Positions 3,892 through 48,200 of a stretch of 64,000 bases of DNA are shown piece after piece (the stretch's first letter is position 1; every line of letters starts with the position of its first letter). Location of the stretch: positions 124,001-188,000 of the forward strand of contig DATNQD010000081.1 of the NCBI GenBank assembly GCA_036702865.1, written 5' to 3'. The DNA comes from Trichocoleus sp. Lineage in GTDB: Bacteria > Cyanobacteriota > Cyanobacteriia > Elainellales > Elainellaceae. The notes under the pieces are model-generated. The model worked only from the letters and a program-made list of their open reading frames with translations, was not told the origin of the DNA and ran no database searches. Position numbers and translations under genes: made by a program.

Positions 3892-4743
3892 CTAGTCCAG
3901 CTGTCGTCCAGTCAACTCCACAAAAATGTCTTCCAAGTTGGAGGGGCGAATCATCATGCCAGTCTTGTCAGGTTGTTGTTCTAGATAAGCCTTGGCTTCA
4001 TCCAACGTGGGGAAAAACTGATAATCCCAGCGATCGCCATTTTGCTTCATCACCAGTCCTTTCCCATGACGCTGCCGGAATTCATCGAGTGTTCCCAGTT
4101 CAATCAGTCTGCCGCTGTCCATAATGCCAATTCGATCGCACAGATATTCGACTTCTTCCATGTAGTGCGTCGTTAACAGCATCGTCATCCCCTGCTGATT
4201 CAGACCTTTGATAATTTCCCAGAGGCGGCGGCGGGTTTGAGGATCGAGTCCAACGGTGGGTTCATCAAGAAAGAGGATTTGCGGGTTGTGTAAGAGGGCC
4301 CTGGCAATTTGCAGCCTGCGCTTCATGCCGCCAGAAAGCGTTTTAACCAAATCAGCGCGGCGATCGGCTAATTCAACATAGTCCAGCCAGCGATCGATTT
4401 CTTGTTGGCGACGGGGATTGGGGATGTGGTGCATTCGGGCATGGAATTCCATGTTTTCCCAAACCGTCAGATCAAGGTCAACGCTAATTTGCTGGAGGAC
4501 GACGCCGATCTGCTTCTTCACGCCAAAAGGTTGCCGCACGACATCATAGCCTGCTACGACAATTTCACCCTGCGTCGGTTGAGTGAGGGTAGTCAGCATG
4601 CGGATGGTGGTTGATTTTCCGGCTCCGTTGGGACCCAGTAAGCCAAAAATTTCACCGGGTTCGATCGTCAGTGACAAACCGTTTACCACCGAGACATTGT
4701 TATAAACCTTGTGAACTTCTTGCAGGGCAACCGCAGCAGTCAT
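3892..4743 (-). CDS. ABC-2 type transporter ATP-binding protein
   Basis: This is a 283-residue ATPase of the DrrA/CcmA (ABCB-like drug or polysaccharide exporter) type. Visible motifs are Walker A GPNGAGKSTT, the signature LSGGMKRRLQIARAL, Walker B ILFLDEPTVGLDP and the switch His in LLTTHYMEEVEYL. A short C-terminal domain (residues about 225-283) ends in LEDIFVELTGRQL, as in many daunorubicin-resistance-like ATPases. The membrane partner (ABC-2 permease) is not adjacent on either side, so it must be encoded elsewhere. The substrate is unknown. Confidence 0.9.
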   Translation of the reverse strand: MTAAVALQEVHKVYNNVSVVNGLSLTIEPGEIFGLLGPNGAGKSTTIRMLTTLTQPTQGEIVVAGYDVVRQPFGVKKQIGVVLQQISVDLDLTVWENMEFHARMHHIPNPRRQQEIDRWLDYVELADRRADLVKTLSGGMKRRLQIARALLHNPQILFLDEPTVGLDPQTRRRLWEIIKGLNQQGMTMLLTTHYMEEVEYLCDRIGIMDSGRLIELGTLDEFRQRHGKGLVMKQNGDRWDYQFFPTLDEAKAYLEQQPDKTGMMIRPSNLEDIFVELTGRQLD

Positions 4744-4866
4744 AACTGTTGAACATGAAACGCTCTCATTCCACGTTACAGCAACTTAACAGTCTTTATC
4801 TGGCTTCAACTGTTATCAAGCTGCAAAGAGAATCCTGATGGTGGCTCAGGTTTTACGAAAACTAGC

Positions 4867-5559
4867 TTATTTCTCTTCTCTAAACTGCACATTTTCTAAA
4901 ACAATTGTCGATCGCGGTGAAAACCGATCGCTGTATTTTTCGGGATAGTGGGTCAGCATATAAAAAGCTTTTCCCTTATACTCCCCGGTATAAATTGCCC
5001 CAACGATCGTCTCTTGTGAAGTGGCTTGCTGGTAGATTAACTTCTCTTTCACCCAGGGATAGCTAACAATATCCGTGCGATCGACAAGTTCCCAGCGATT
5101 CGTGACTAGCAAGCCTCGATCGCCCAAAATCAAATCCTGCATTTCTTCCAGGTTAGAAGCTTGATCCGGAATAAACAGATCAATATAGGCTTTGGCGTTT
5201 TTCTTGCCACCTGGACTGAAATAAAGCCGTACCCCTGAGCCCGCTTGAGTCGTTAACGGTTGGCTCACAAAATCCTGACTCGGAAAGTAGGTCGTAAATG
5301 GCAGCGTAGACTGGTCGAGCAGCTTTAGCTCCACTTCGGTTGCCCGTCCTTCCACATTAATCGGCATGATGCGTGTGTCGGGGCGCTCTTCTGGAGATGG
5401 GCTAGGTACAGTTGCGCTGGCAGCATTCGGAGATTGACCAGAGGCTTGATCAGCAGGGGATGGATTGGAACTAACAGGCGGATTCGTCTTGACGCAAGCA
5501 GACAGGGCAGACAACATTGCCCCTACCAGCAAGAGGGCAACGAAACGAGATAATTTCAT
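4867..5559 (-). CDS. predicted lipoprotein, function unknown
   Basis: The product is 230 residues with a clear type II signal peptide. It has a basic start (MKLSR), a hydrophobic core and a lipobox LSAC, so Cys22 would be lipidated. A Pro/Ser-rich linker (residues about 25-65) leads to a globular domain of about 165 residues with no family I can name. The content (LRLYFSPGGKKNAKAYIDLFIP and LTHYPEKYSDRF segments) suggests a mixed alpha/beta periplasmic domain. It lies 14 bases downstream of leuS on the same strand and may be cotranscribed with it. Confidence 0.75.
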   Translation of the reverse strand: MKLSRFVALLLVGAMLSALSACVKTNPPVSSNPSPADQASGQSPNAASATVPSPSPEERPDTRIMPINVEGRATEVELKLLDQSTLPFTTYFPSQDFVSQPLTTQAGSGVRLYFSPGGKKNAKAYIDLFIPDQASNLEEMQDLILGDRGLLVTNRWELVDRTDIVSYPWVKEKLIYQQATSQETIVGAIYTGEYKGKAFYMLTHYPEKYSDRFSPRSTIVLENVQFREEK

Positions 5560-5573
5560 GTTGCCTCTCCTGC

Positions 5574-8147
5574 CTAATTCACAACGAAGTTGACCAACTT
5601 ACCCGGCACAAGAATTTCTTTTTTGATTTCCTTGCCTGCGATATAGCGCTGTGCCAACTCAGACTCTCTCGCCATTTGCTTTTGTTCCTCCTGGCTGGCT
5701 TGTGCTGGAACCTGAATCGTGCCGCGTGTTTTGCCCATGACTTGAATCACCAGAGCAATTTCATCTACCACCAGGGCAGACAAGTCAGCCTCACACCAAC
5801 TTTGATGATGCACTGAGTCCGAGTAGCCTAGAAGATGCCATAGTTCTTCCGCAATATGAGGTGCTAGAGGGGCAAGTAGCTTGATCAGCGTCTCGATCGC
5901 CTCCTGATACACCCGCGAATCTTTGCAGGATGCGTCTGAAATGGCGTTGCTCAGCTTCATTAATTCTGAAACTGCGGTATTGAACTGATAATCGCCTTCC
6001 AGATCTTCCGTCACCTGCTGAATTGCATAGTGCGTAGCGTAGCGCAGATCCTTCTCTGCCTTCGTCAGTTGCCCATTTCCTGACCCCGCTTTGCGCCCCG
6101 AAGCTTGATACTCCATGACCAGTCGCCACACCCGATTCAGGAAGCGGAACTGCCCTTCTACATCTGCCTCATCCCACTCTAGGTCTTTCTCTGGCGGAGC
6201 TTTAAACAGAATGAACATCCGCGCGGTATCCGCCCCATATTTGCCTAATACTTCTTCAGGAGCAACGCCGTTGTACTTCGACTTCGACATTTTCTCGTAA
6301 ACCACTTCCAACTTATCCCCAGTTTCACGATCTTTGGGGTCGTTCGGGTCTGTGACTTGGGTTGGAATGACGTATTTCCCGGTGCGCGGATTCTTGTAGG
6401 TCTTGCCCTGCACCATTCCCTGTGTCAATAGGCGCGTAAACGGCTCGTCAAAATTCAGCAAGCCTCGATCGCGCAATACCTTGGTGAAGAAGCGGGAATA
6501 GAGCAAGTGCAAAATTGCATGTTCAATGCCGCCTACATATTGATCGACGGGCATCCAATTGTTGGTTTGATTTGGGTCGAAGACCTGACGATCGTTCTGG
6601 GCATCTGGGTAGCGCAAGAAATACCAGGACGAGTCGATGAAAGTATCCATCGTGTCAGTTTCACGACGAGCAGGCGTACCGCAGCTTGGACAGGGTACAT
6701 TCAGCCAATTTTCGGCTGTTGTTAATGGAGAAGCACCTCGACCTGTGAACTCAACGTCTTCAGGCAACTTCACTGGTAAATTGGCATCCGGCACAGCCAC
6801 AGCCCCACATTTCGGGCAATGAATGATAGGAATCGGGCAGCCCCAATAGCGCTGACGCGAAATCAGCCAATCGCGCAGCCGATAGTTCACCATCCGCTTA
6901 CCTTTGCCGTTCGCTTCCAGCCAATCGATCGCCGCTCCGACGCTTTGACCTGAACCCTTACCTGCCGGAACCCCATCCAATGGCCCCGAATGCACCATCA
7001 CACCTTCGCCAGGATAGGCAACTTTCATCTTGTCCGAGTCAATCGTCTGATCCGCAGGCTGCACAACCACTTTGATTGGCAGATTAAATTGCTTAGCAAA
7101 CTCAAAGTCGCGCTGGTCATGCGCTGGGACTGCCATAATTGCCCCTGTGCCATAGCCCATCAGCACATAGTCAGCAATCCAGATCGGGATTTGCTCTCCG
7201 TTCACCGGATTAATGGCATAGCTGCCCGTCCAAACGCCTGTTTTCTGACGGTTTTCGTCAGTGCGATCGATCTCACTCTTGCCTGCAGCTTCCGCTTGAT
7301 ATGCCTGAACGGTTGCTGCCTGTTCTGAAGTGGTTAACTTCGCAGTTAAGGGATGCTCTGGCGACAGCACCATAAAAGTCGCACCCCACAGGGTATCTGG
7401 GCGAGTTGTGAATACGGTTAACTCATCCCCGGTTTCCGTCTTGAAAACGACTTCTGCCCCAGTAGACTTGCCGATCCAGTTTTCCTGCATCAGCTTGACG
7501 CGATCGGGCCAGCCATCCAGCTTGCCTAGATCATTGAGTAATTGCTCGGCATAGTCTGTGATTTTGAAGAACCACTGCTTTAGCAGCCGCCGTTCAACTT
7601 TTGCTCCCGATCGCCAGGAACGTCCTTCGCTATCTACTTGTTCGTTGGCAAGTACGGTTTGATCGATCGGATCCCAGTTCACTGCTGCTTCTTTCTGGTA
7701 TGCCAAACCCGCCTTGAAAAACTCTAAAAAGATCCACTGCGTCCAGCGATAGTAGTCTGGCGAACAAGTTGTGACTTCCCGCTCCCAGTCATAAGACAAA
7801 CCGAGCCGCTTCAGTTCTTCCCGCATTTGAGCGACGTTTTGGTATGTCCACTTTGCTGGATGAATGCCTCGATCGATCGCTGCATTTTCCGCAGGCAGAC
7901 CAAACGCATCCCATCCCATTGGGTGTAGCACCCGATATCCCTGCATTCGATGCACTCTGGCAATCACATCCGTAATCGTGTAGTTGCGGACATGCCCCAT
8001 GTGCAGACTACCAGACGGATAGGGAAACATCGACAGCGCATAAAACTTGGGCTTACTGCGATCTTCCGAGGTGGCATCCATGCCTTCCTCAGCCCAAATC
8101 TTCTGCCATTTTTCCTCAATGGTCGCCGGGTTATAACGGGACTCCAC
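5574..8147 (-). CDS. leuS: leucyl-tRNA synthetase
   Basis: This enzyme charges tRNA-Leu. The product is 857 residues, normal for bacterial LeuRS. Class I signatures are present: [12 protein letters not shown] (HIGH variant) near residue 45 and KMSKSKYNG near residue 620. The CP1 editing domain includes [20 protein letters not shown], with its T-rich peptide and the [16 protein letters not shown] motif. A zinc-type CPKCGA...CPSCG segment sits near residue 445. The start [18 protein letters not shown] is typical. A lipoprotein gene follows closely on the same strand. Confidence 0.98.
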
Positions 8148-14870: not shown

Positions 14871-16940
14871 ATGGAACAGCAGATGGAAGAGAGCATTTAC
14901 ATTTTTGATCCTGAAATCTCAGTTGCTCTGGACGATCGAACCATTGTGCTGTCGGCTGAGGAAAAGACTGAGGCAATCGTTGGCGAGCTGTCATTGGGGG
15001 AGAACTTTGTTTCAGCAGAGACAGGACAGCCAGATTGGACAAAGCTTGTACCAGAAGTCCTGACGGCAGAGTATTTGGCTCAACTGATCGGGATGCTGCG
15101 CGACAATTCCGCTTTACCCGATTTGGTGACAGAGCAGCTATTTCAGCATTTGTTGAAGGTTTATCGCCACAAGGTCGAAGTCATTATTCAGTCTCAGGGA
15201 ATTGAGGCGATCGATACGAATTTGCCCCATTTTAAGTTTGTCACTAACCGCAAAACAGGCACTAAAAAATTAGATCTGGTCTTCAATGATGAAAAAATCA
15301 AAGCTTACTTAAAAGACTCCCTCGCTGAGTTCTTCGGCTATGCCGGATTTTGGGAAGAATTTGCCAAAGCGATCGGAGCCAATTTAGTAGTTTGGGTGAT
15401 TGAAACGCTCGAAAAAAAGCAGGGAGCAACCACCTTTCAAATTACTTCATCAGAAACATTTATTCAGCAAATTCAGCAATATCTACTTACTGCTACTGAT
15501 CCAAAGCTGCAAGAGAGAATTAGCTTATTAGGACAACTTTATTGCCAGGACATTACTAAAAAAATTATTCAAGGATTTAAGCTGCCCAATCGTTCAATTC
15601 AGGACATGGATAAGCTGTTGGGGCTGCGACAAAAACTACCGACTCTCACAGAAATCAGCAGTCTCAATCTTGACCCGATTAGCGTCATTCCGACTGCCAT
15701 CCCGATCGCCAGCAGCATCCGTGCTCAACTACGCCCAGACTTATGGCAGCAAAACGCCGATCGTCTTGCCGTCTTTCAATATCGCAGCAAAACAAATCCC
15801 AACAACTACATCGAGCATTACATTACCAATCCCGGTGATATTGCCCTTTTACCCTGGGAAGCTGCCGAACAAATTATTAATAAATTTGGCTTTGATACCG
15901 TCAAACTCCAGCTCATTTTTGCAGCTCGCACGATGGAAGAAGACGAGCCCTGGAAAAGCACATTTACGCTAAAAGCCAGCGATATGATTCATCTCTTAGG
16001 CTGGGATCGAAACCATAGTACGAGCTTGCCAGAAAAACGCAATGCGGTTGCCAGCACTGCCTATGCTTTGTCTTGTTTGTTAGTGAAATCAGTCTGGATG
16101 GAAGGACGTGGTAAACGTCAAATTGATGCCAGTACACCGATCGGCAGAATGTGGGATGTATTGATTGATTTACACGGACAATTTGATTGGGTCAGCGGCA
16201 AGATTGAGAAGCCTGATGAGGTCTATATCACCGTGAGCCCCGGACTCTGGACAAAGCATTTTTTGAATCGGGCTGGCAGCAAAGCAAAAGAGGCACTGCA
16301 TCAGTTTGGTTATCTAGCCAAAGACATTCTCAAAATTGATCCTTACCACCATGAAATGGCATTGCGTTTAGCAATTCAACTCACGCTAGATGCTCGAATT
16401 CGCGTTCATAATCAAAACCCCTACGACTATCGCGTTGCCAGCCTCTTGGAAGAAGTTTTGCCGCGCACTGAAATTGACAAAGCCTTACAAGATAAACACC
16501 GAGCGAGAGACTTAAAGAATCGCTGGAATCGTGCCTTAAAGCTGCTGATTAGTCTGGGTTGGCAAATTGAGTATGACCCACAGACCTATCCTGAGTGGCT
16601 ACAGCCGGGCAGTAATGCCCCCAAACCAGATGACTGGCGTAAAGTCAAAGTAATTGAGCGGCTGCTGCAAGCCAAACTCACAATCAAGCCACCCCATCCA
16701 ATTCCGGGGCTCCTCGCCACCATGAAGGAACCCAAGAAACCCAAACCACTACAGCCTTCTCCTTCAGAAGAATTGACGGGTGATCAAGTCCGGGAAGCCA
16801 GAGTCGCATTAGGCTGGAGCCGCAAAGAGCTAGGGGGATTTTTAGACCTGAGTGCTGACTATGTAGGCAAGCTAGAGCGAGGCGATCGAATCATCACCCC
16901 TGAACTGGAAACAAGACTTCGGAAACTGCTACATCTATAG
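14871..16940 (+). CDS. large protein of unknown function with C-terminal XRE-type HTH
   Basis: I do not recognise a named family for this 689-residue protein. Residues 1-290 are mainly helical and acidic. Residues about 300-600 (LPWEAAEQIINKFGFDTV, LKASDMIHLLGW, YITVSPGLWTKHFL, NRWNRALKLLISLGWQIEYD) read like successive winged-helix modules of the kind seen in plasmid replication initiators. From about residue 633, EELTGDQVREARVALGWSRK onward is a canonical XRE/Cro helix-turn-helix (LSADYVGKLERGDR recognition region). There is no signal peptide. The start ATG at 14871 is preceded by GTAAAGAGAGC. A tandem 16-bp repeat lies 120 bases upstream. A DNA-binding regulator or an initiator-like protein is likely; the exact role is unknown. 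Confidence 0.8.
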   Translation: MEQQMEESIYIFDPEISVALDDRTIVLSAEEKTEAIVGELSLGENFVSAETGQPDWTKLVPEVLTAEYLAQLIGMLRDNSALPDLVTEQLFQHLLKVYRHKVEVIIQSQGIEAIDTNLPHFKFVTNRKTGTKKLDLVFNDEKIKAYLKDSLAEFFGYAGFWEEFAKAIGANLVVWVIETLEKKQGATTFQITSSETFIQQIQQYLLTATDPKLQERISLLGQLYCQDITKKIIQGFKLPNRSIQDMDKLLGLRQKLPTLTEISSLNLDPISVIPTAIPIASSIRAQLRPDLWQQNADRLAVFQYRSKTNPNNYIEHYITNPGDIALLPWEAAEQIINKFGFDTVKLQLIFAARTMEEDEPWKSTFTLKASDMIHLLGWDRNHSTSLPEKRNAVASTAYALSCLLVKSVWMEGRGKRQIDASTPIGRMWDVLIDLHGQFDWVSGKIEKPDEVYITVSPGLWTKHFLNRAGSKAKEALHQFGYLAKDILKIDPYHHEMALRLAIQLTLDARIRVHNQNPYDYRVASLLEEVLPRTEIDKALQDKHRARDLKNRWNRALKLLISLGWQIEYDPQTYPEWLQPGSNAPKPDDWRKVKVIERLLQAKLTIKPPHPIPGLLATMKEPKKPKPLQPSPSEELTGDQVREARVALGWSRKELGGFLDLSADYVGKLERGDRIITPELETRLRKLLHL

Positions 16941-16959
16941 CAGAAGCTAGAGCTAAGAG

Positions 16960-18135
16960 TCAGGAATCCTCTGCCATTAAGCCCTCAATGTCTTGCACCA
17001 CATCTCGTAAAAGCTGCTTTTCCGTGCGGCGAGAAGGACGACGATATTTCTTGGTCTGGAGTTTGGGTTCTTCAATCTGACCCTCACCCTTTGTCATCCG
17101 TTTCGTGGTTGATTCGGGGTCACTGGTGCGCTCGATCGCCTCCTGGTAGTGAACCACCTCATCCAGAAAAGTCAGGTAATGCTCATACCGCTCCCAATCT
17201 CCACGCACTGCACAGTTTGGCTCATCGCGATGAAGGCAATCACTAAACTGACAGTCTGCTTCTGCCAAACGATGACGGGCTTCCGGGAAATATTGATCAA
17301 GGTCAGTTGGGGCACAGTCTAAGTCAGGCTGGTTAAATCCAGGTGTATCTGCAAGTAGTCCCCCATGGGGAAGCTGAAATAGCTCGATGTGACGAGTTGT
17401 ATGACGACCGCGCCCCAGTTTGCCCGAAACTTTGCCAACCCGCAGATCCACATCTGGAATCAAAGCATTGATCAAGCTGGACTTTCCCACTCCAGAAGGA
17501 CCTGAAACTACCGTAATTCGCTGATTCAGCCTGGTTTGTAGCTCCGCCAAACCTAAATCCTGCTGCACACTCAGCAACACTGGGTCATATCCCCAGCCGC
17601 GCAACCGATCGCGCCATTCTGCCTGTTCTTCTAGGCTCACCAAATCCTGCTTATTCAGACAAAGACAAACCGCAAGCCCGGTAGACTCTGCCTTCACCAG
17701 GAAACGGCTTAGCTGCATCGGATCAAGGGCCGGTTCGGCAATTGCAAACACTAGCAAAATCTGATTCGCATTGGCGATCGGCGGTCGATCTAGCTCAGTC
17801 TGCCGGGGAAATACCTGAGCAATTGCACCCCGTCCCCCTTCAAAATCTGGCTCTTCAATCTGAACCCGATCGCCCACAATCACCTGCTGCCCAATTTTCT
17901 TGAGGCGAGTCCGACGCGTACAAAGCAAGCTCTCTGGAATGGAGACGCTTTGCTCCGTTGCTCCGTTTCCCTGTCTCCCTGCCCCTGCCTTTCCTATCTG
18001 ATCCCGGTCAAGCTGCACCCAATAAAAGTTAGCCTGAACTGCGATAACGGTTCCAGTCAGAGGGGAGGGAGTTAGGTCTTGAGAAGCCGAATCGCTGTCC
18101 ATGAGGTTTGGCTGATTACGTCGCTCAGCACTCAT
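16960..18135 (-). CDS. rsgA: small-subunit ribosome biogenesis GTPase RsgA
   Basis: The product is 391 residues. An OB-fold N-terminus (residues about 25-110) precedes a circularly permuted GTPase: G4 LNKQDL, then G1 GPSGVGKSSLIN, then G3 DTPGF. A C-terminal zinc knuckle CQFSDCLHRDEPNCAV is followed by a basic tail. RsgA checks late 30S assembly and releases maturation factors. The N-terminal 20 residues and the ~45-residue charged tail are longer than in E. coli. It is the last gene of the leftward dnaK-dnaJ-tusA-rsgA run, 3 bases from tusA. Start may be Met12. Confidence 0.95.
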   Translation of the reverse strand: MSAERRNQPNLMDSDSASQDLTPSPLTGTVIAVQANFYWVQLDRDQIGKAGAGRQGNGATEQSVSIPESLLCTRRTRLKKIGQQVIVGDRVQIEEPDFEGGRGAIAQVFPRQTELDRPPIANANQILLVFAIAEPALDPMQLSRFLVKAESTGLAVCLCLNKQDLVSLEEQAEWRDRLRGWGYDPVLLSVQQDLGLAELQTRLNQRITVVSGPSGVGKSSLINALIPDVDLRVGKVSGKLGRGRHTTRHIELFQLPHGGLLADTPGFNQPDLDCAPTDLDQYFPEARHRLAEADCQFSDCLHRDEPNCAVRGDWERYEHYLTFLDEVVHYQEAIERTSDPESTTKRMTKGEGQIEEPKLQTKKYRRPSRRTEKQLLRDVVQDIEGLMAEDS

Positions 18136-18138
18136 AAC

Positions 18139-18399
18139 TTAGCACTTAACACTGTCCTCAGTGGGGCGGCGTACCTTCAGGGCAAAGAAATCAGTACGGT
18201 CTTCAATCTGCTCAATCCCGTAGCCTTCCATCCTTAAACTATCTGGCACTTGTTCGATCGGTTCACCCGCATCCAGCCAGACCTCAAGTAAAGATCCTGG
18301 CGGCATCTTCTCAAGACGAAGTTTGGTTCGCACGAAATTGAGGGGGCAGGGTGTGCCCCGTAAATCAAGCTGGGCATCAGGCGTTGCTGTCTGGCTCAT
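18139..18399 (-). CDS. TusA-family sulfurtransferase
   Basis: The product is 86 residues with the SirA/TusA fold. The motif [21 protein letters not shown] has the conserved sulfur-carrying Cys, although the usual CPxP reads CPLN. Such proteins relay persulfide sulfur for tRNA thiolation or cofactor assembly. The ATG overlaps the dnaJ stop by four bases (18396-18399), indicating translational coupling. The placement between dnaJ and rsgA is a common cyanobacterial arrangement. Confidence 0.88.
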
Positions 18400-19529
18400 C
18401 CGCGAAACAGTCCCCCTAGAAACCCCTCAATGCCACCACCCTTACTCAGCCGATCGCCCCGGAGCTTTACCAGCTTATCAAGCAGTTCCCGCTCCTCATT
18501 AGTGACTTTGGTTGGAATATCTACCTTAATGGTCAACAGATGATCCCCACGGCTGGTTGGGTTGCCCAATCGAGGCACGCCTTGCTTCTCCAGCGTCACG
18601 ACTGTATTTGGTTGCGTTCCAGGTGCGATCGGCACTTCTGTCTTGCCATCTACCGTCTCAACTTCGATGCGATCACCCAAAATCGCTTGTAGGTAGCTAA
18701 TCTTTATCTCAGAGAGAATATTGATTCCATCTCTCTGGAAGTGGGCATCTTCATTGACAAACAGATAGACATAGAGATCGCCCGCAGGACCACCTCGCTG
18801 TCCGGAATCCCCTTCACTCGACACGCGCAAACGAGTCCCGTTATCTACCCCTGGAGGAATAGTGATCTTCAGCTTTTTCGCTTCTTGCTTCTGACCACTG
18901 CCGCCACAGTTATCACACTTGTCTTCAATAACCTGACCATTGCCATTACAGGTCGGACAAACTGAAACCTGAGTGAAGCTGCCAAACGGAGTCCGGGTTG
19001 CCCGACGCACTTGCCCTGCCCCATTACAGGTCGAACACATCCGAGCTTGCGTTCCCGGCTTTGCGCCTGCTCCACTACAAACCGCGCAAGTTTCCAGATG
19101 GCTAATGCGGATTTCTTTTTCGCCGCCAAACACGGCTTCACGGAAATCAAGCTTCAGATCCAGGCGTAGATCGTCACCCCGAACTGGGCCTGCTCTGCGG
19201 CGAGTTTGTTGCCCGCCCATGCCGCTGGAAAAACCGCTAAAGAAGCTTTCAAAAATATCGGCAAAGCCACCAAAATCACCAAAGTCTTGGTAGCCAGCAG
19301 CACCTGCCGCAGAACTGACGCCAGCTTCACCAAAGCGATCGTATCTTGCCCTGGTTTCTGGTTCCGACAGGACTTCGTATGCCCGGTTAATCTCTTTAAA
19401 CTTGTCTTCGGCTCCGGGGTCTTTATTGACATCCGGATGAAATTTACGAGCCAGCCGTCGATAAGCGCGTTTGATTTCCTCCTTGTCTGCGCTACGAGAG
19501 ACACCAAGGATTTCGTAATAGTCTGCCAT
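18396..19529 (-). CDS. dnaJ: chaperone DnaJ
   Basis: The product is 377 residues and a full-length type I J-protein. The J domain includes HPD ([20 protein letters not shown]). A Gly/Phe-rich linker spans residues about 75-125. Four CxxCxGxG zinc repeats follow ([32 protein letters not shown]). The C-terminal substrate-binding and dimerisation domains end in [13 protein letters not shown]. It delivers clients to DnaK and stimulates its ATPase. It is downstream of dnaK on the same strand (114-base gap) and overlaps tusA. Confidence 0.97.
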
Positions 19530-19643
19530 AGGGCGTTACTTCAGGAATATGCGAGGTGATAGAAGTAGACAAGGGATCAGGGTAATAATACCTGAGTATC
19601 AGACATTTTTCTGCGAATCCCTCCTCCATCCTAAATCAAGCCG

Positions 19644-21602
19644 CTAGTCAACGGCTTCATAATCTGCGGCGATCGTATCATCATTGACGAAATCACCGCT
19701 GTACTCGTCATCCATCATGGCAGTTTCCGTTTCATGTTCATCCGTCCAGGGAGCTGCGCTGTCGTAGGAGGAGCGGGTTGTGTCTGCTTCGCCTGCCTGC
19801 TTATAAACCGATTCGCCAACCGTGAGAAGGGCATGCTGTAAGGCATCTAATCGATCGCGCATTGCCTCAACCGTGATAGTCCGGTCGCCAATAGCAGCCC
19901 TGAGTTCCGCCATCTTTTGCGCCGCAAACTGCTTAAGGTCATCGGTGACAAACTCAGCATTATCGCGCATGGTCGTTTCATAGCTGTAGAGGAGCGAATC
20001 TGCCTGATTTCGCAGAACCACCATCTCCTGACGACGGGCATCGTCTTCGGCATAAACTTCAGCTTCCTGACGCATCCGTTCGACTTCTGCCTCGCTCAAT
20101 CCGCCCGTATTGCTGATGCGGATACTCTGAGCGCGTCCAGTGCCTTTGTCCCTTGCTGCAACCTGCAAAATTCCATTCGCATCAATTTCAAATGACACCT
20201 CAATTTGAGGCACACCTCTGGGTGCAGGCGGAATTCCGGCTAGCTGAAACTTACCCAAACTCTTGTTGTCTTTCGCCATCGCCCGTTCACCCTGAAGAGC
20301 GTGGATTTCAACCGAAGTTTGTCCGTCGGTTGCCGTTGAAAAGACCTGAGTTTTACTCGTGGGGATCGTTGTATTGCGATCGATGATCTTGGTGAAGACT
20401 TCGCCCAGGGTTTCAATTCCCAGCGAGAGCGGTGTCACATCCAGCAGCAGCAGATCCTTAACTTCGCCGCCCAAAACACCTGCTTGAATTGCTGCACCCA
20501 GCGCTACCGCTTCATCAGGGTTGACCGATCGATCAGGGGTTTTGCCCCCAAAGTGATTGCGAATTGCTTCCTGCACTGCCGGAATTCGGGTTGAGCCACC
20601 GACCAGCAAAATGCGATCGATCCGATCAGGCGTGAGGTCACAATCTTTTAATGCTTGCGTTACAGGCTCGATCGTCTGCTGTACTAAATGCCCCACCAGT
20701 TCTTCAAACTTCGAGCGGGTCAGCTCAGTTTCTAGATGCTTAGGACCCGTTTCATCTGCCGTAATAAAGGGCAGGTTAATTGTGGTTGTGAGCATATTGG
20801 AAAGCTCGATTTTGGCTTTCTCCGCAGCTTCACGGAGGCGTTGCAGCGCCATTTTGTCGGCTGAGAGGTCAATCCCTTCCTGCTCTCTGAAATTATCACT
20901 CATCCAGCGAACCAGGACATTATCAAAGTCATCGCCGCCCAGGTGGTTATTTCCAGAAGTGGCTTTGACTTCAAATACGCCATCTCCCAGTTGCAGAATG
21001 GAAACATCAAACGTGCCGCCGCCTAAGTCATAAACCAGAATGCTTTGATCCTGATCTTGCTTTTCCAAGCCATAGGAAAGTGCAGCAGCAGTCGGCTCGT
21101 TGATAATCCGTAGAACTTCTAGTCCGGCGATCGTCCCTGCATCTTTCGTTGCTTGCCTTTGAGCATCGGTAAAGTAGGCAGGAACCGTAATCACAACCTG
21201 GGTAACGGGCTCTCCCAAATAGCTTTCTGCATCCTGCTTCAGTTTTTGCAGAATCATGGCAGAAATTTCTTGGGCAGTGTAGCTGCGACCACGAATTTGG
21301 ACATCAACCGTATCATCCTTGCCCCTAGCACAACCATAGGGGACACGGCGACGCTCTTCCTCAGTATCATTCCAGCGACGACCGATAAATCGCTTGATAC
21401 TAAAGACCGTATTTTCAGCGTTTGTTACTGCCTGTCGTTTTGCGAGTTGTCCGACAAGCCGTTCCCCCGATTTGCCAAATCCGACGATACTGGGAGTCGT
21501 TCTGCCCCCCTCGGAGTTTGCAATCACAACGGGTTTTCCACCCTCTAGGACTGCAACACAGCTGTTGGTTGTGCCCAAGTCGATGCCGATGACTTTTCCC
21601 AT
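19644..21602 (-). CDS. dnaK: chaperone DnaK (Hsp70)
   Basis: The product is 652 residues. The nucleotide-binding domain opens with [21 protein letters not shown] and carries the Hsp70 signatures [14 protein letters not shown] and [17 protein letters not shown]. The substrate-binding domain ([14 protein letters not shown]) is followed by a helical lid and an acidic, Asp/Glu/Thr-rich tail. The tail does not end in the usual EEVD-like or EVKDKK motif. This is the grpE-dnaK-dnaJ copy, as with the essential DnaK2 of cyanobacteria. I found no CIRCE element upstream (21603-21850), so control differs from groEL in this window. Confidence 0.97.
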
Positions 21603-44750: not shown

Positions 44751-45470
44751 ATGGCACTCAAAGCAGTTCTATTTGACTTTAACGGTGTCATCATCAACGA
44801 TGAGCCATTGCATGATCAGCTTCTAGAACAGATTTTGATTCAGGAGAACCTGCGTCCGAAGCGGGGAGAGTTTCGTGAACTGTGTTTGGGGCGGAGCGAT
44901 CGAGCCTGTTTGACCGATCTGCTGGCGCGTCGGGGTCGTGTGGTAACAGATGAATATTTAGATGACCTTATCGCCCAGAAATCTCGCAGCTATCAGCTTC
45001 AGCTAGAAGCCATTGAAAAACTGCCGATCTATCCAGGATTAGCCGATCTGATTTTTCAAATCCGAGCTGCTCAGGTGACAATGGCGATCGTTAGTGGTGC
45101 AGTTCGAGCCGAGATCGATCTGGTTTTGCAGCGGACAAATTTAGCGCAGCACTTTTCGGTGATTGTCTCAGGGGATGACATCAAGACCAGTAAACCTGAT
45201 CCAGAGGGCTATTTACTCGCTGTAGAACGCCTTAATCAGCAGCAGCCCCAACTGAACCTGAAGCCGCAGGAATGTTTAGTCATTGAAGATACATTTGCTG
45301 GAATTGAGGCAGGAAAGCGAGCTGGGATGCAGGTTGTGGGTGTGGCAAATAGTTACCCTTTTCATATGATGCAGCGTTGCTCAAATTGGGCAGTGGATTA
45401 TCTGTCGGAACTGGAGTTCGATCGAGTTCGGCGGGTTTACGAGAAGCTGAATCAGCAGCCTGTTTCCTGA
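44751..45470 (+). CDS. HAD-superfamily hydrolase-like protein (motif I Asp+2 is Asn)
   Basis: The product is 239 residues. It is a subfamily I HAD with a helical cap, like beta-phosphoglucomutase/phosphatases. The nucleophile is Asp9 in FDFNGVIINDE. The usual second Asp (acid/base, +2) is Asn11. Motif II is IVSGAVRAEI and motif III with IV is DDIKTSKPDP...VIEDTFAGIEAGKRAGM. The substitution suggests altered or reduced phosphatase activity. The 0.8-kb repeat region begins directly downstream. Confidence 0.88.
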   Translation: MALKAVLFDFNGVIINDEPLHDQLLEQILIQENLRPKRGEFRELCLGRSDRACLTDLLARRGRVVTDEYLDDLIAQKSRSYQLQLEAIEKLPIYPGLADLIFQIRAAQVTMAIVSGAVRAEIDLVLQRTNLAQHFSVIVSGDDIKTSKPDPEGYLLAVERLNQQQPQLNLKPQECLVIEDTFAGIEAGKRAGMQVVGVANSYPFHMMQRCSNWAVDYLSELEFDRVRRVYEKLNQQPVS

Positions 45471-45482
45471 ATTTCTAGAGAT

Positions 45483-46283
45483 TGAGACAAGCAAATCCGG
45501 ATCGTCTCACCAGTTTGTAGCCAGCCTGACTTTGCCTGAATTATGCAAACTCTTTCTAGGTCTTGATCTTAGGCGATGAAGTTGGTGCATTTGTACGAGC
45601 GAGCGCTTGTATTGAAGCTTGTCTCTTGTCTCAGATGTCAATATTTTTAGTATTGAGACAAGCAAATCCAGATCGCCTCACCGTTCGATCGGCTGTTTTT
45701 TGCCCCTAGCTTGTCTGATTTGAGACAATTTTTTCCGGGTTAACTCACTCAGTCCAGTCAAATTTCCCCTGCTATTTTTTGTTAAAAGCATTGTCAGCTA
45801 AAGATTCTATCCCTAATCGAGCACTGTAGATTTGTTTGTATCAGTTGCGCGAAATCCTGAGACAAGTTCTTCCAGATCTCGTCACTTTAATTTAGTGAAT
45901 ATTCCAGTTTTGAGAAGTATAATTCGATCGCTCAACCCTAGCTACAGCGTTTTAGTTGCTGTTAGTTCAGGAGGATAGCTCTATATGTTGAGTAGAGTAA
46001 GTGAAAATCTACTTGTCTTGTCTCAGATCACATTTTGCCCAAAAATCGCCTGAGATGCTTATGTTCTAAAGACTTTAGCATGAGACAAACCTTTCCAGAT
46101 CGCAGCACGATCGTCCCTTGATCCCATCACTTTTTCTCCTGATCTCATCACGTTCAAGTTTTAAAGCCTTTACCCTGTAAGCGTTTGAGCCACGTGAGAC
46201 AAGCCTAATCAGTCTGATCAGACTGATCCTTCTACCAATGCAATAAAGACGAACCTGACACAATAAACGCGATCTGATCTCAC
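45483..46283. repeat. irregular iteron-like array of a bipartite 29-base element
   Basis: Plus-orientation copies start with TGAGACAA at 45483, 45654, 45721, 45858, 46081 and 46195. In the best copies this is followed by about 6 bases, TCC(A/G)GATC and (G/T)CTCAC. Inverted box A copies (TTGTCTCA) lie at 45626-45633 and 46018-46025, with a partial one at 45618. Extra box B copies (TGATC.C.TCAC) lie at 46118-46130, 46139-46151 and 46274-46283. In the first copy TGAGAC and GTCTCA form an imperfect inverted repeat. Spacing is irregular (67 to 223 bases), unlike a CRISPR. Box A would occur by chance about 0.02 times in this length. Confidence 0.85.
46208..46227. promoter_or_regulatory. perfect 20-bp palindrome
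   Basis: ATCAGTCTGATCAGACTGAT reads the same on both strands. It lies 71 bases before the first possible codon of the AEP-like gene and just after the last box A element. A regulator operator or cruciform-forming site is likely; the binding partner is unknown. Confidence 0.75.
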
Positions 46284-46298
46284 GAGAAGAGGTGCAAT

Positions 46299-48200
46299 AT
46301 CGTTACCCTTGCCGCTGTCCATGAGTTTCGCTACGTTGCCGAGCAAGACCCGTTTCTTGCCCTCTTTCCGCATCGATTTGATTTTATTTATGCAACGTAT
46401 CCAGAGCCGGGACAATCGCCTTCCTGGGAGACAGAGCGACGCTATCCGTTGCCCGATCGAATGGTGCAGCAGGGCAGCGAATTATATGGAGTAAGGTTTG
46501 GGACTCGGACACAATACTGTTTACTTGATATTGATACAGGCAGTTTTTATCATCCTCAGCGTGATCCTTTGGCGATCGGTCGAATTCTTGCGGCATTAGA
46601 GCCAATTGGGTTCGTCTCATTCCTTGCCTGTACATCAAGCTATAGCGGCGGGATTCATCTCTATTTGCCGTTTACGCAATCCCAAAGTTCATGGGAACTG
46701 GCGATCGGGGTCGCAACGCTGCTCGAAAATGCAGGCTTCAAGCTTAAACCAGGGCAGCTTGAGGTTTTCCCAAATCCAAAGCCCTACAGCATTCAGGGAA
46801 AGCCAACTTTATTTAATGCCCATCGCTTACCGTTGCAGGTTGGGTCGTATCTTCTTGATTCAGACTTTCAACCAATTTGGAGCGATCACCATCGGTTTGT
46901 TGAGCAGTGGCAGCTCGTTCAATCTCAGAATGATCTGGAGACTAAAGCGCTAAAGCAAATTCTCAAACAGGCAAAGCGTAAACAGTATCGTGTCTCTGGT
47001 CGAGCAGATAAGTTTTTGCAAGATCTCAATATTGAAATTGAGCAAGGCTGGACGGACTATGGACAAACAAACCGTCTCTTGGGACGCATCACCATGCGAG
47101 CCTATATTTTTCACCATATCCTTCACGGAGGTGAACCTTTGACCGGGCAGGCTTTAGTGAATGAAATTGTGGTAACGGCGCGATCGCTTCCTGGCTATAA
47201 AGATTGGTGCAGACACCAGCATGAAATTGAGCAACGGGCGATCGATTGGGCAAGATGCATTGAAAGCAGCCATTATTTTCATTACACCAATCGCAGTACA
47301 AACCAGCTAAAAACTTTAACGCTTGATGTTGAAGCTGCTGTTGCTGATCTCCCTTCCTGGAACCAACAGCAATCTGAATCTGCTAGAGAACGCATTAAAG
47401 GCGCGATCGTTGATTTGTTAGAGAAAGATAGTTTACCTGCAACAGCAACCGCCAGATTTCATGCGCTGACCCAGTACGGTATTGGTGGAGGGTCATTGTA
47501 TCGCCATCGAGATTTATGGCATCCACAGCACCTTGTCGAAAACCATATCCCTGTGGAAAACCCCCCGCACCCCCTAACATCATTTACATCTAGACCGTCT
47601 GATTGCTTATCAGAGGCATCAAACGGTCTTAGCTGTACAAGCTTATTCCCTGGTGCAGACAGTAATGCCTTGTGTGATGAGGCTTTGAACGATCGCCCTT
47701 CTCCAACAAAGCAAACGACAGGCAGTAATTCCCAATTGACAGCCCAAATCGAGGCAAGCAAAGCTGCTTTAAGAGCTGCCAAGCTAGAAATTGACCTCCT
47801 GAAACAGCAAGCTTACGAACAGACCTATCAGCAGCAAATCCAGCACTATCTCACTTCTAGCGACCCTATTTTGATTGCTGAAGCACAATCCCGTTTGCAA
47901 TCCCAAACCCCTCACGGTTTCCCTCGCCCAGCCCAACGCTCCATCGATCGCACCGCTACCCTCGACCAGGACTATTCAAAGCCCCATCACGTTGGAGAAT
48001 TGCAAAAGCGAGAAGCCGCTCAGCTACCACTTGATTGCTCAGACCTGATTGCCGCCATTTCCGTCCAGATCAAACGCCTCCAGTGGTCAGGTACAGAAAT
48101 CCGCGATCGATTGCAGGTGCGATACCAGAAATCCAATCGAGCGATGCTGAGCGAAACGGAGCTACGGGACTGGTTGATCCATCTCCAAAACCGCGACTAA
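46299..48200 (+). CDS. archaeo-eukaryotic primase (AEP/PrimPol)-like protein
   Basis: The open frame runs from 46278 to the TAA at 48198-48200. The core has the three AEP motifs: I, LLDIDTG (Asp-x-Asp, catalytic metal); II, SGGIHLYLPF (SGxxH); III, LEVFPN (Glu). Further on, a helical domain leads to a winged-helix-like segment (TARFHALTQYGIGGGSLYRHRD) and a coiled coil (IEASKAALRAAKLEIDLL). The first ordinary start codon is TTG at 46449, only 26 residues before motif I. The upstream residues HEFRYVAEQDPFLALF still look coding. GAGAAGAGG sits just before an AUC at 46299, taken here as the start. Primer synthesis or DNA-end polymerisation is expected of the fold. Confidence 0.75.
   Translation: MVTLAAVHEFRYVAEQDPFLALFPHRFDFIYATYPEPGQSPSWETERRYPLPDRMVQQGSELYGVRFGTRTQYCLLDIDTGSFYHPQRDPLAIGRILAALEPIGFVSFLACTSSYSGGIHLYLPFTQSQSSWELAIGVATLLENAGFKLKPGQLEVFPNPKPYSIQGKPTLFNAHRLPLQVGSYLLDSDFQPIWSDHHRFVEQWQLVQSQNDLETKALKQILKQAKRKQYRVSGRADKFLQDLNIEIEQGWTDYGQTNRLLGRITMRAYIFHHILHGGEPLTGQALVNEIVVTARSLPGYKDWCRHQHEIEQRAIDWARCIESSHYFHYTNRSTNQLKTLTLDVEAAVADLPSWNQQQSESARERIKGAIVDLLEKDSLPATATARFHALTQYGIGGGSLYRHRDLWHPQHLVENHIPVENPPHPLTSFTSRPSDCLSEASNGLSCTSLFPGADSNALCDEALNDRPSPTKQTTGSNSQLTAQIEASKAALRAAKLEIDLLKQQAYEQTYQQQIQHYLTSSDPILIAEAQSRLQSQTPHGFPRPAQRSIDRTATLDQDYSKPHHVGELQKREAAQLPLDCSDLIAAISVQIKRLQWSGTEIRDRLQVRYQKSNRAMLSETELRDWLIHLQNRD

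Follow-up and report, generated by a model that had tools for sequence, protein, structure and literature searches.

What might an array of short repeats be doing in front of a primase gene when both lie among the housekeeping genes of a cyanobacterial chromosome? The locus sits in a stretch of 64,000 nucleotides from Trichocoleus sp. (G000:C81:124001-188000; hereafter, the window), part of a genome of 5.93 Mb assembled in 90 contigs. Reading the ORFs by eye, one finds leuS, dnaJ, dnaK, grpE, groEL, and prfB, and because these are core chromosomal genes, the locus is taken as chromosomal. Our preferred reading, to which we give a probability of about 0.6, is that it represents an iteron-type replication module of the cyanobacterial plasmid kind that now lies in the chromosome as two separate pieces.

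The array is preceded by a HAD-type gene ending at 45470, and the local gene order is HAD, AEP (the primase), and ion channel. Conserved synteny was considered and rejected, as this order was not found in relatives: the search of 40 genomes returned 30 HAD loci, one of them the window's own, and the other 29 had no AEP or ion channel within 1.5 kb. G005 retains the gene upstream of HAD; matches to the ion-channel protein occur in 11 of the 40 genomes, and one was seen near an AEP only in G023, approximately 9.4 kb apart. Among the window ORFs, no plasmid backbone genes were recognised beside the array, and the neighbours resemble ordinary chromosomal genes.

Within the 828 non-coding bases that separate the HAD-type gene from the inferred AEP start, box A (TGAGACAA) is present in eight copies, six on the plus strand (45483, 45654, 45721, 45858, 46081, and 46195) and two on the minus strand (45626 and 46018), the same counts that an earlier note on this DNA had given for an irregular array. 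It is the most frequent 8-mer in 45471-46298, and eight of its ten copies in the whole window fall inside the array. In 5000 dinucleotide-preserving shuffles of the array, the word averaged 0.07 copies with a maximum of 3, and any 8-mer reached at most six copies, which occurred in 2 of the 5000. The chance expectation for box A, earlier put at about 0.02, is recomputed as roughly 0.03-0.07 per 800 bases, which leaves the conclusion unaltered.

Most plus copies had been said to continue into a second half-site, box B, and this is true of five, which take the bipartite form TGAGACAA-N5-TCC-NN-ATC-NNN-TCAC at 0-2 mismatches, all in the array; the sixth (46195) carries a palindrome instead. Three full bipartite elements on the plus strand have no mismatch (45483-45510, 45654-45681, and 45858-45885), and a fourth has two (45721-45748). 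The inverted boxes are exact words on the minus strand at 45626-45633 and 46018-46025, the latter approximately 280 bases before the inferred start codon, where most of the aligned class-A (TGAGACAA-class) loci retain it. At 46081-46151 (plus strand), a box A element with one mismatch is followed by two further GATC..TCAC half-sites, conserved in alignment A7. These two, near 46120 and 46141, had been listed among isolated box B copies; they are present, but instead of standing alone they follow the 46081 element at regular steps, the GATC words at about 46098, 46120, and 46141 being 22 and 21 bases apart, as in short-period iterons. Nearest to the gene, at 46195-46227 (plus strand), the sequence and the alignment reveal box A and then a perfect 20-bp palindrome, ATCAGTCTGATCAGACTGAT (46208-46227).

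The proximal part of roughly 340 bases has a common layout, with some variation, in 14 class-A loci, both chromosomal and partner-linked: an inverted box at about -280; a box A element at about -217, then two TCAC half-sites at steps of 21-22 bases; and box A with the palindrome at about -104, then the ribosome-binding stretch. No DnaA box of the form TT(A/T)TNCACA is present in 45471-46298, and the array has no marked AT-rich stretch (AT 0.50-0.72 per 46-base bin). Such features are common, though not universal, among the origins of iteron Rep initiators.

Box A on its own is not confined to the array, with 252 copies genome-wide versus 162 for the reversed word. The full element, in contrast, is not scattered, an outcome that the earlier note would have counted against its reading if it came without linkage to the gene: elsewhere in the genome there is none at two or fewer mismatches and five at three, while the reversed-element control gave 0 forward and 1 reverse match at three or fewer. 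When a near-identical pattern was searched in 12 genomes at two or fewer mismatches, every match in seven of them stood upstream of a class-A AEP (G000 5, G005 2, G023 2, G002 1, G012 1, G006 2, and G017 8). In G026, five of six matches did so and one lay away from any known class-A AEP, as did the single match of G007; G001, G003, and G013 had no match at this threshold.

The gene behind the array (46299..48200, plus strand, 633 aa) was assigned from its ORF, alignment, and predicted fold as an AEP (PrimPol-type) primase, and the earlier description of a primase-like product holds up well. No Pfam AEP or PrimPol model matched the product at E up to 1; the fold matches, by comparison, are clear. 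The PrimPol domain spans residues ~14-230, and the C-terminus is remotely like the slr1353 family, below the model cut-off. Against CAPP PrimPol, the predicted model, which is of moderate confidence (pTM 0.47), gave Z 15.9 over 190 aligned residues (rmsd 3.6; Foldseek E 1.3e-6), with LigD, PriS, and the RepB' primase matching lower. Residues D77, D79, H120, and E155 are invariant in alignment A6, which holds 45 sequences (the window plus 44 of 80 loci; L204 was left out, having a stop codon in the stretch); alignment A5 holds the window plus 29 loci. As given in an excerpt of PMC5862659, AEP motifs I, II, and III read hhhDhD/E, sxH, and hD/E, and these four residues agree with them, E155 presumably being the motif III residue.

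A Shine-Dalgarno-like AAGAGGTG (46287-46294) precedes an ATC (46299-46301), and the two together (46287..46301, plus strand) suggest, in sequence and alignment, a non-AUG start. The reading frame has no ATG, GTG, or TTG until 46449; a start there would come after residues 22-48, among which several are invariant in A6, so that a start at the ATC of 46299 appears the probable one. The arrangement AGGTG-N4-ATC recurs in 9 of 24 start rows (the window, L160, L162, L177, L184, L206, L220, L226, and L054), although in L160 an ATG also lies in frame, 12 bases upstream of the ATC. In three further loci (L042, L047, and L185), ATT or ATC occupies the start position with no ATG, GTG, or TTG ahead of it; an in-frame TTG is found in another three (L214, L215, and L217), and an ATG or GTG in L170, L183, L187, L201, L238, L198, L200, and L063. 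A non-AUG start thus seems to be a recurrent trait of class-A primase genes, not a universal one.

AEP relatives are widespread, occurring in 34 of the 40 genomes searched (its own included), several by the slr1353-like tail alone, and on 66 PLSDB plasmids, which are cyanobacterial in the 60 rows listed; phage records gave no AEP match. On a 13-kb plasmid of L. boryana with seven listed genes, the AEP is near ParA and ParB genes. The genome of the window has six AEP matches, two of them C-terminal pieces. Three other long copies (G000:C67:42079-44025, C18:19020-20612, and C31:24153-25331; L031-L033) are 46-65% identical to the window AEP and have other arrays or none, none of them typed. The C67 copy is accompanied by a c9-type partner at C67:44648-46585.

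The earlier note had raised the prospect of homologous genes without the repeats, and the outcome is divided. The AEP genes often lack TGAGACAA, while many carry other arrays, paired with other partner types, and some loci have no clear repeat. The words found upstream are TGAGACAA; TTCTAGAA with TTGACAA; CCGGAGTTACAG; CCGGAGTGATAG; and TGAGTACAA with AAGCTATT. No clear array was seen upstream of the AEP in four relatives carried on plasmids (pSYSG, T. variabilis plasmid D, L. boryana plasmid3, and Kovacikia pB); with these and the loci below whose array could not be typed, an array is documented for only part of the family.

In related loci, including those on plasmids, an initiator-like gene, the array, and the primase adjoin. 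The partners upstream fall into family I (open frames of ~470-740 aa; types c3, c5, and c9) and family II (~360-430 aa; type c1). We examined 80 named loci, the best 80 of 240 relatives, and found a partner in 64, some as fragments only; of the 16 without one, seven have less than 1.5 kb upstream. The array could be typed in 37 of the 64 and not in the other 27. Five repeat classes stand against four partner types, and the pairing was as expected in 36 of 37 loci (seven join class A to c5, ten class B to c3, 17 class C or D to c1, and two class E to c9), a count that is not independent, as the motif classes were picked by eye from the genome-search arrays and several of the 80 loci are the same places. 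The sole exception is L193, where B stands with c9.

Similar AEPs can carry different cassettes on the AEP tree (L171 c1 versus L190 c3; L163 c1 versus L176 c3; and L054 c5, L055 c9, and L197 c3), which suggests that array and partner move together while the AEP is shared. On this tree, whose resolution is weak (32 of its 86 inner branches are open), the partner type changes 28 times over 67 labelled rows as against 29-38 (mean 33.9) in 300 shuffles; cassette exchange would therefore be frequent and not random. Two partners within one genome are of the same type in 4 of 32 pairs (shuffled mean 8.3; p 0.04, a weak effect).

The partner type that goes with TGAGACAA has a distinctive recognition helix, S(A/S/Q)DYxGKxER(G/V)DR, present in all 16 rows with an TGAGACAA-type array and an intact C-terminus (L183, truncated there, was left out of the count). 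The relatives L198, L200, L056, L041, and L152 do not have this helix, and the first three have neither an TGAGACAA-type box nor a relaxed element. L214, L217, L226, and L238 keep the helix and have few exact boxes; their elements are relaxed, T(G/A)AGACA with CTCC. This covariation lends indirect support to binding of the array by the partner.

The window AEP has no adjoining partner. The family-I profile instead matched (E 3.3e-244) an ORF 30 kb upstream of the array, at 14871..16940 on the plus strand (profile match at G000:C81:139051-140937), which encodes an initiator-like protein of 689 aa; no array of its own was found at this gene. Its predicted Pi/RctB-type core covers residues ~267-613, and an XRE helix-turn-helix covers 633-689. 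The model is of moderate confidence (mean pLDDT 79, pTM 0.53), and its best PDB match is RctB domains 2-3, with a Foldseek E of only 4e-3. In VIA-align, the core of the predicted structure gave Z 11.8 against RctB (250 aligned, rmsd 4.9) and Z 11.7 against Pi bound to iteron DNA (231 aligned, rmsd 4.8). Residues 633-689 have many XRE domain matches (Z ~10), with HTH_3 and HTH_31 above cut-offs. The earlier note had cast the AEP as the initiator; the likely array-binding protein is rather this separate gene. The iteron-type reading of the repeats in that note fits and is well supported.

An unlinked c5-type partner is found in 6 of 40 genomes (G000, G005, G023, G002, G012, and G026), and each of these also has a partnerless class-A AEP locus among the loci fetched; matches such as G006:C204, G026:C280, G004:C35, G010:C1, and G001:C38 lie outside this count. 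This co-occurrence indicates that the unlinked partner probably acts in trans on the array and AEP. In the other five genomes, the unlinked proteins are 67-78% identical to the window partner. In G002, a single contig of 5.8 Mb, partner and AEP are ~3.15 Mb apart. The window, G005, and G023 group as a clade in both trees, with support of 100/100 in that of the partner and an SH-aLRT of 95 in that of the AEP.

The closest parallels are Pi of R6K, RepE, and RctB, which resemble the present system in the predicted winged-helix core of the partner (~230-250 residues) and in an array that combines direct elements with inverted copies close to where the gene begins. The partner differs in its additional C-terminal XRE domain and its N-terminus of ~260 residues; moreover, a dedicated AEP primase stands behind an array in which no DnaA box was found, and the initiator-like gene is unlinked, 30 kb away. 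RctB, which serves chromosome 2 of Vibrio cholerae, is a precedent for a plasmid-type initiator in charge of a chromosome (PMC6090056, excerpt). The AEP shares the PrimPol fold and D77, D79, H120, and E155 with CAPP PrimPol, the RepB' plasmid primase, and the PrimPol of cyanophage S-2L, but unlike these it is paired with a class-specific initiator-like gene and an array. From an excerpt of PMC10899382, CyRepA1 and CyRepX1/2 of Synechocystis plasmids are helicase-like replication proteins with homologues on chromosomes. They are thus comparable as cyanobacterial plasmid replication proteins with chromosomal counterparts. Our AEP and partner profiles matched neither CyRepA1 nor the two long pSYSX proteins, which by place and length we take to be CyRepX1 and X2. 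In the literature, we found no open-licence title on such an iteron-primase or XRE module of cyanobacterial plasmids.

Binding, DNA opening, priming, and origin activity are what we infer from the computed anatomy, predicted folds, class pairing, element uniqueness, and co-occurrence among fetched loci. The partner would use its winged-helix core and XRE domain to bind the TGAGACAA/TCC..ATC..TCAC elements; one form of it would repress the AEP gene and another would open the DNA, as in Pi, RepE, and RctB. The AEP would then make primers at the opened site, with no call for DnaA boxes, its output being held low by the non-AUG start codon and the adjoining elements. In plasmids, the module would be a unit of replication and compatibility in which the array and initiator cassette sets specificity and the AEP is interchangeable. 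In the chromosome of the window, the split module may perhaps be an origin, usable as a secondary or DnaA-independent one, or else a site kept for controlled priming. As dnaA is present in this genome and in the other five with a split pair, the module does not substitute for a lost dnaA. In elongatus, initiation has reportedly shifted to the origin of an integrated plasmid. In the single-contig G002, cumulative GC skew over 58 sampled stretches, each 20 kb long, was not significant, as 1126 of 2000 permutations reached the observed range.

The partner also has relatives of another kind. Family-I homologues of ~540 aa occur on other cyanobacterial contigs (23 genes in 20 stretches, L304-L323) with no AEP beside them, and 17 of the 20 stretches lack an 8-mer repeated four times within 1.2 kb; some repeated words occur in L314, L322, and L321, most in L321. 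With no AEP and mostly no arrays, they were dropped as candidate chromosomal initiators. N-terminal Fe-S-type cysteines were present in all 11 sequences inspected, with weak Fe-S matches in L304, L313, L316, and L306. From their architecture, their neighbours, and the description in an excerpt of PMC8510180, these proteins look like CnfR/PatB. In that account, CnfR activates transcription and has conserved sites that lie 300-600 bp upstream of nifB. In hhalign, the window partner and the CnfR-like proteins align at E 3e-33 over ~400 columns that take in the Rep-like core and the XRE domain; L304:6047-7645 and L316:6651-8417 are examples that share both. The CnfR/PatB-like proteins of L304-L316 thus have the homologous core and XRE domain, with N-terminal Fe-S motifs and no adjoining AEP, whereas the window partner has a long helical N-terminus and no Fer4-type match at E up to 0.1.

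The nitrogenase activator CnfR therefore seems, from sequence comparison, to be related to plasmid initiators, and the core homology suggests a possible source of this nitrogenase regulator; we found no open-licence paper joining CnfR with plasmid replication initiation. For the partner itself, homology to an activator makes DNA binding likely and need not mean initiation. One should accordingly weigh the possibility that the array is a transcription control region only, through which a CnfR-like partner controls the AEP for repriming or repair, with no origin at all. An array that abuts the AEP start and a partner that is unlinked, as an ordinary regulator may be, would suit this well. Eight boxes over 800 bases are, in our judgement, much for one promoter, though, and the same layout recurs between partner and AEP in plasmid-type loci, with array and partner type pairing and being exchanged together; we consider simple regulation of the AEP, the main competing explanation, possible but rather unlikely.

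Two further explanations were weighed. If an integrated plasmid had been mostly lost, leaving the array and AEP without function, one would expect what is seen around them, namely ordinary chromosomal neighbours, no recognised backbone genes, and a gene order not found in relatives. Such decay is hard to reconcile with two intact ORFs, the retained catalytic residues, recognition helix, and array layout, the co-occurrence of the two unlinked parts in six genomes, and the clade common to both genes, and we regard it as improbable. That a transposase binds the repeats, as part of a small mobile element whose cargo is the AEP, strikes us as very improbable indeed: the AEP is multi-copy and its neighbours differ between genomes, but no transposase or integrase was recognised by eye in the ORFs beside it, and the divergence of the other long copies, with their other or absent arrays, argues that they are not products of recent transposition. 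A phage or defence origin was set aside, with no phage record match and with weak PADLOC and PHROGs matches, the partner's only at its XRE domain.

The split plasmid-type module is thus preferred. A stronger form of it, which we advance tentatively and consider doubtful, is that the array is a working DnaA-independent origin, at which the TGAGACAA iterons would be opened in trans by a domesticated plasmid initiator encoded 30 kb away and a dedicated AEP would prime, CnfR descending from such initiators or sharing an ancestor with them. If true, captured modules would be one answer to DnaA-independent replication in some cyanobacteria. Swapping of array-plus-initiator cassettes ahead of a common primase could account for the coexistence of several such plasmids in one cell, and the cassettes might be used as a set of mutually compatible origins. 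The parts that the module offers for testing are a primase, a family of initiator-like proteins whose recognition helix can be read, and the elements matched to them.

Some minor observations should also be recorded. The partner gene of the window is close to dnaJ and dnaK (14871-21602), and activation of RctB in Vibrio requires DnaK/DnaJ (PMC6090056, excerpt). Since none of rsgA, dnaJ, and dnaK turned up beside the unlinked partners fetched from other genomes, this proximity is probably chance. The family-II partner (e.g., L163:4109-5278; alignment A2) is a protein of ~390 aa, 73-80% identical to the first A2 sequence, and is a candidate second, unrelated initiator. It had no match in Pfam, PHROGs, or PADLOC, is divergent from the AEP in 26 of 26 cases counted, and has class C or D arrays in 17 of 28 loci. 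The plasmid pSYSG of Synechocystis 6803 (L051), whose replication protein is called unknown in an excerpt of PMC10899382, carries two AEP relatives side by side (3953-5680 and 6169-7578), with no clear array upstream. Finally, a small gene lies downstream of several AEP genes (L039:9798-10223, L070:6584-7063, and L071:10508-10864), with homologues in eight loci, and is DUF6788-like in the one scanned (L071).
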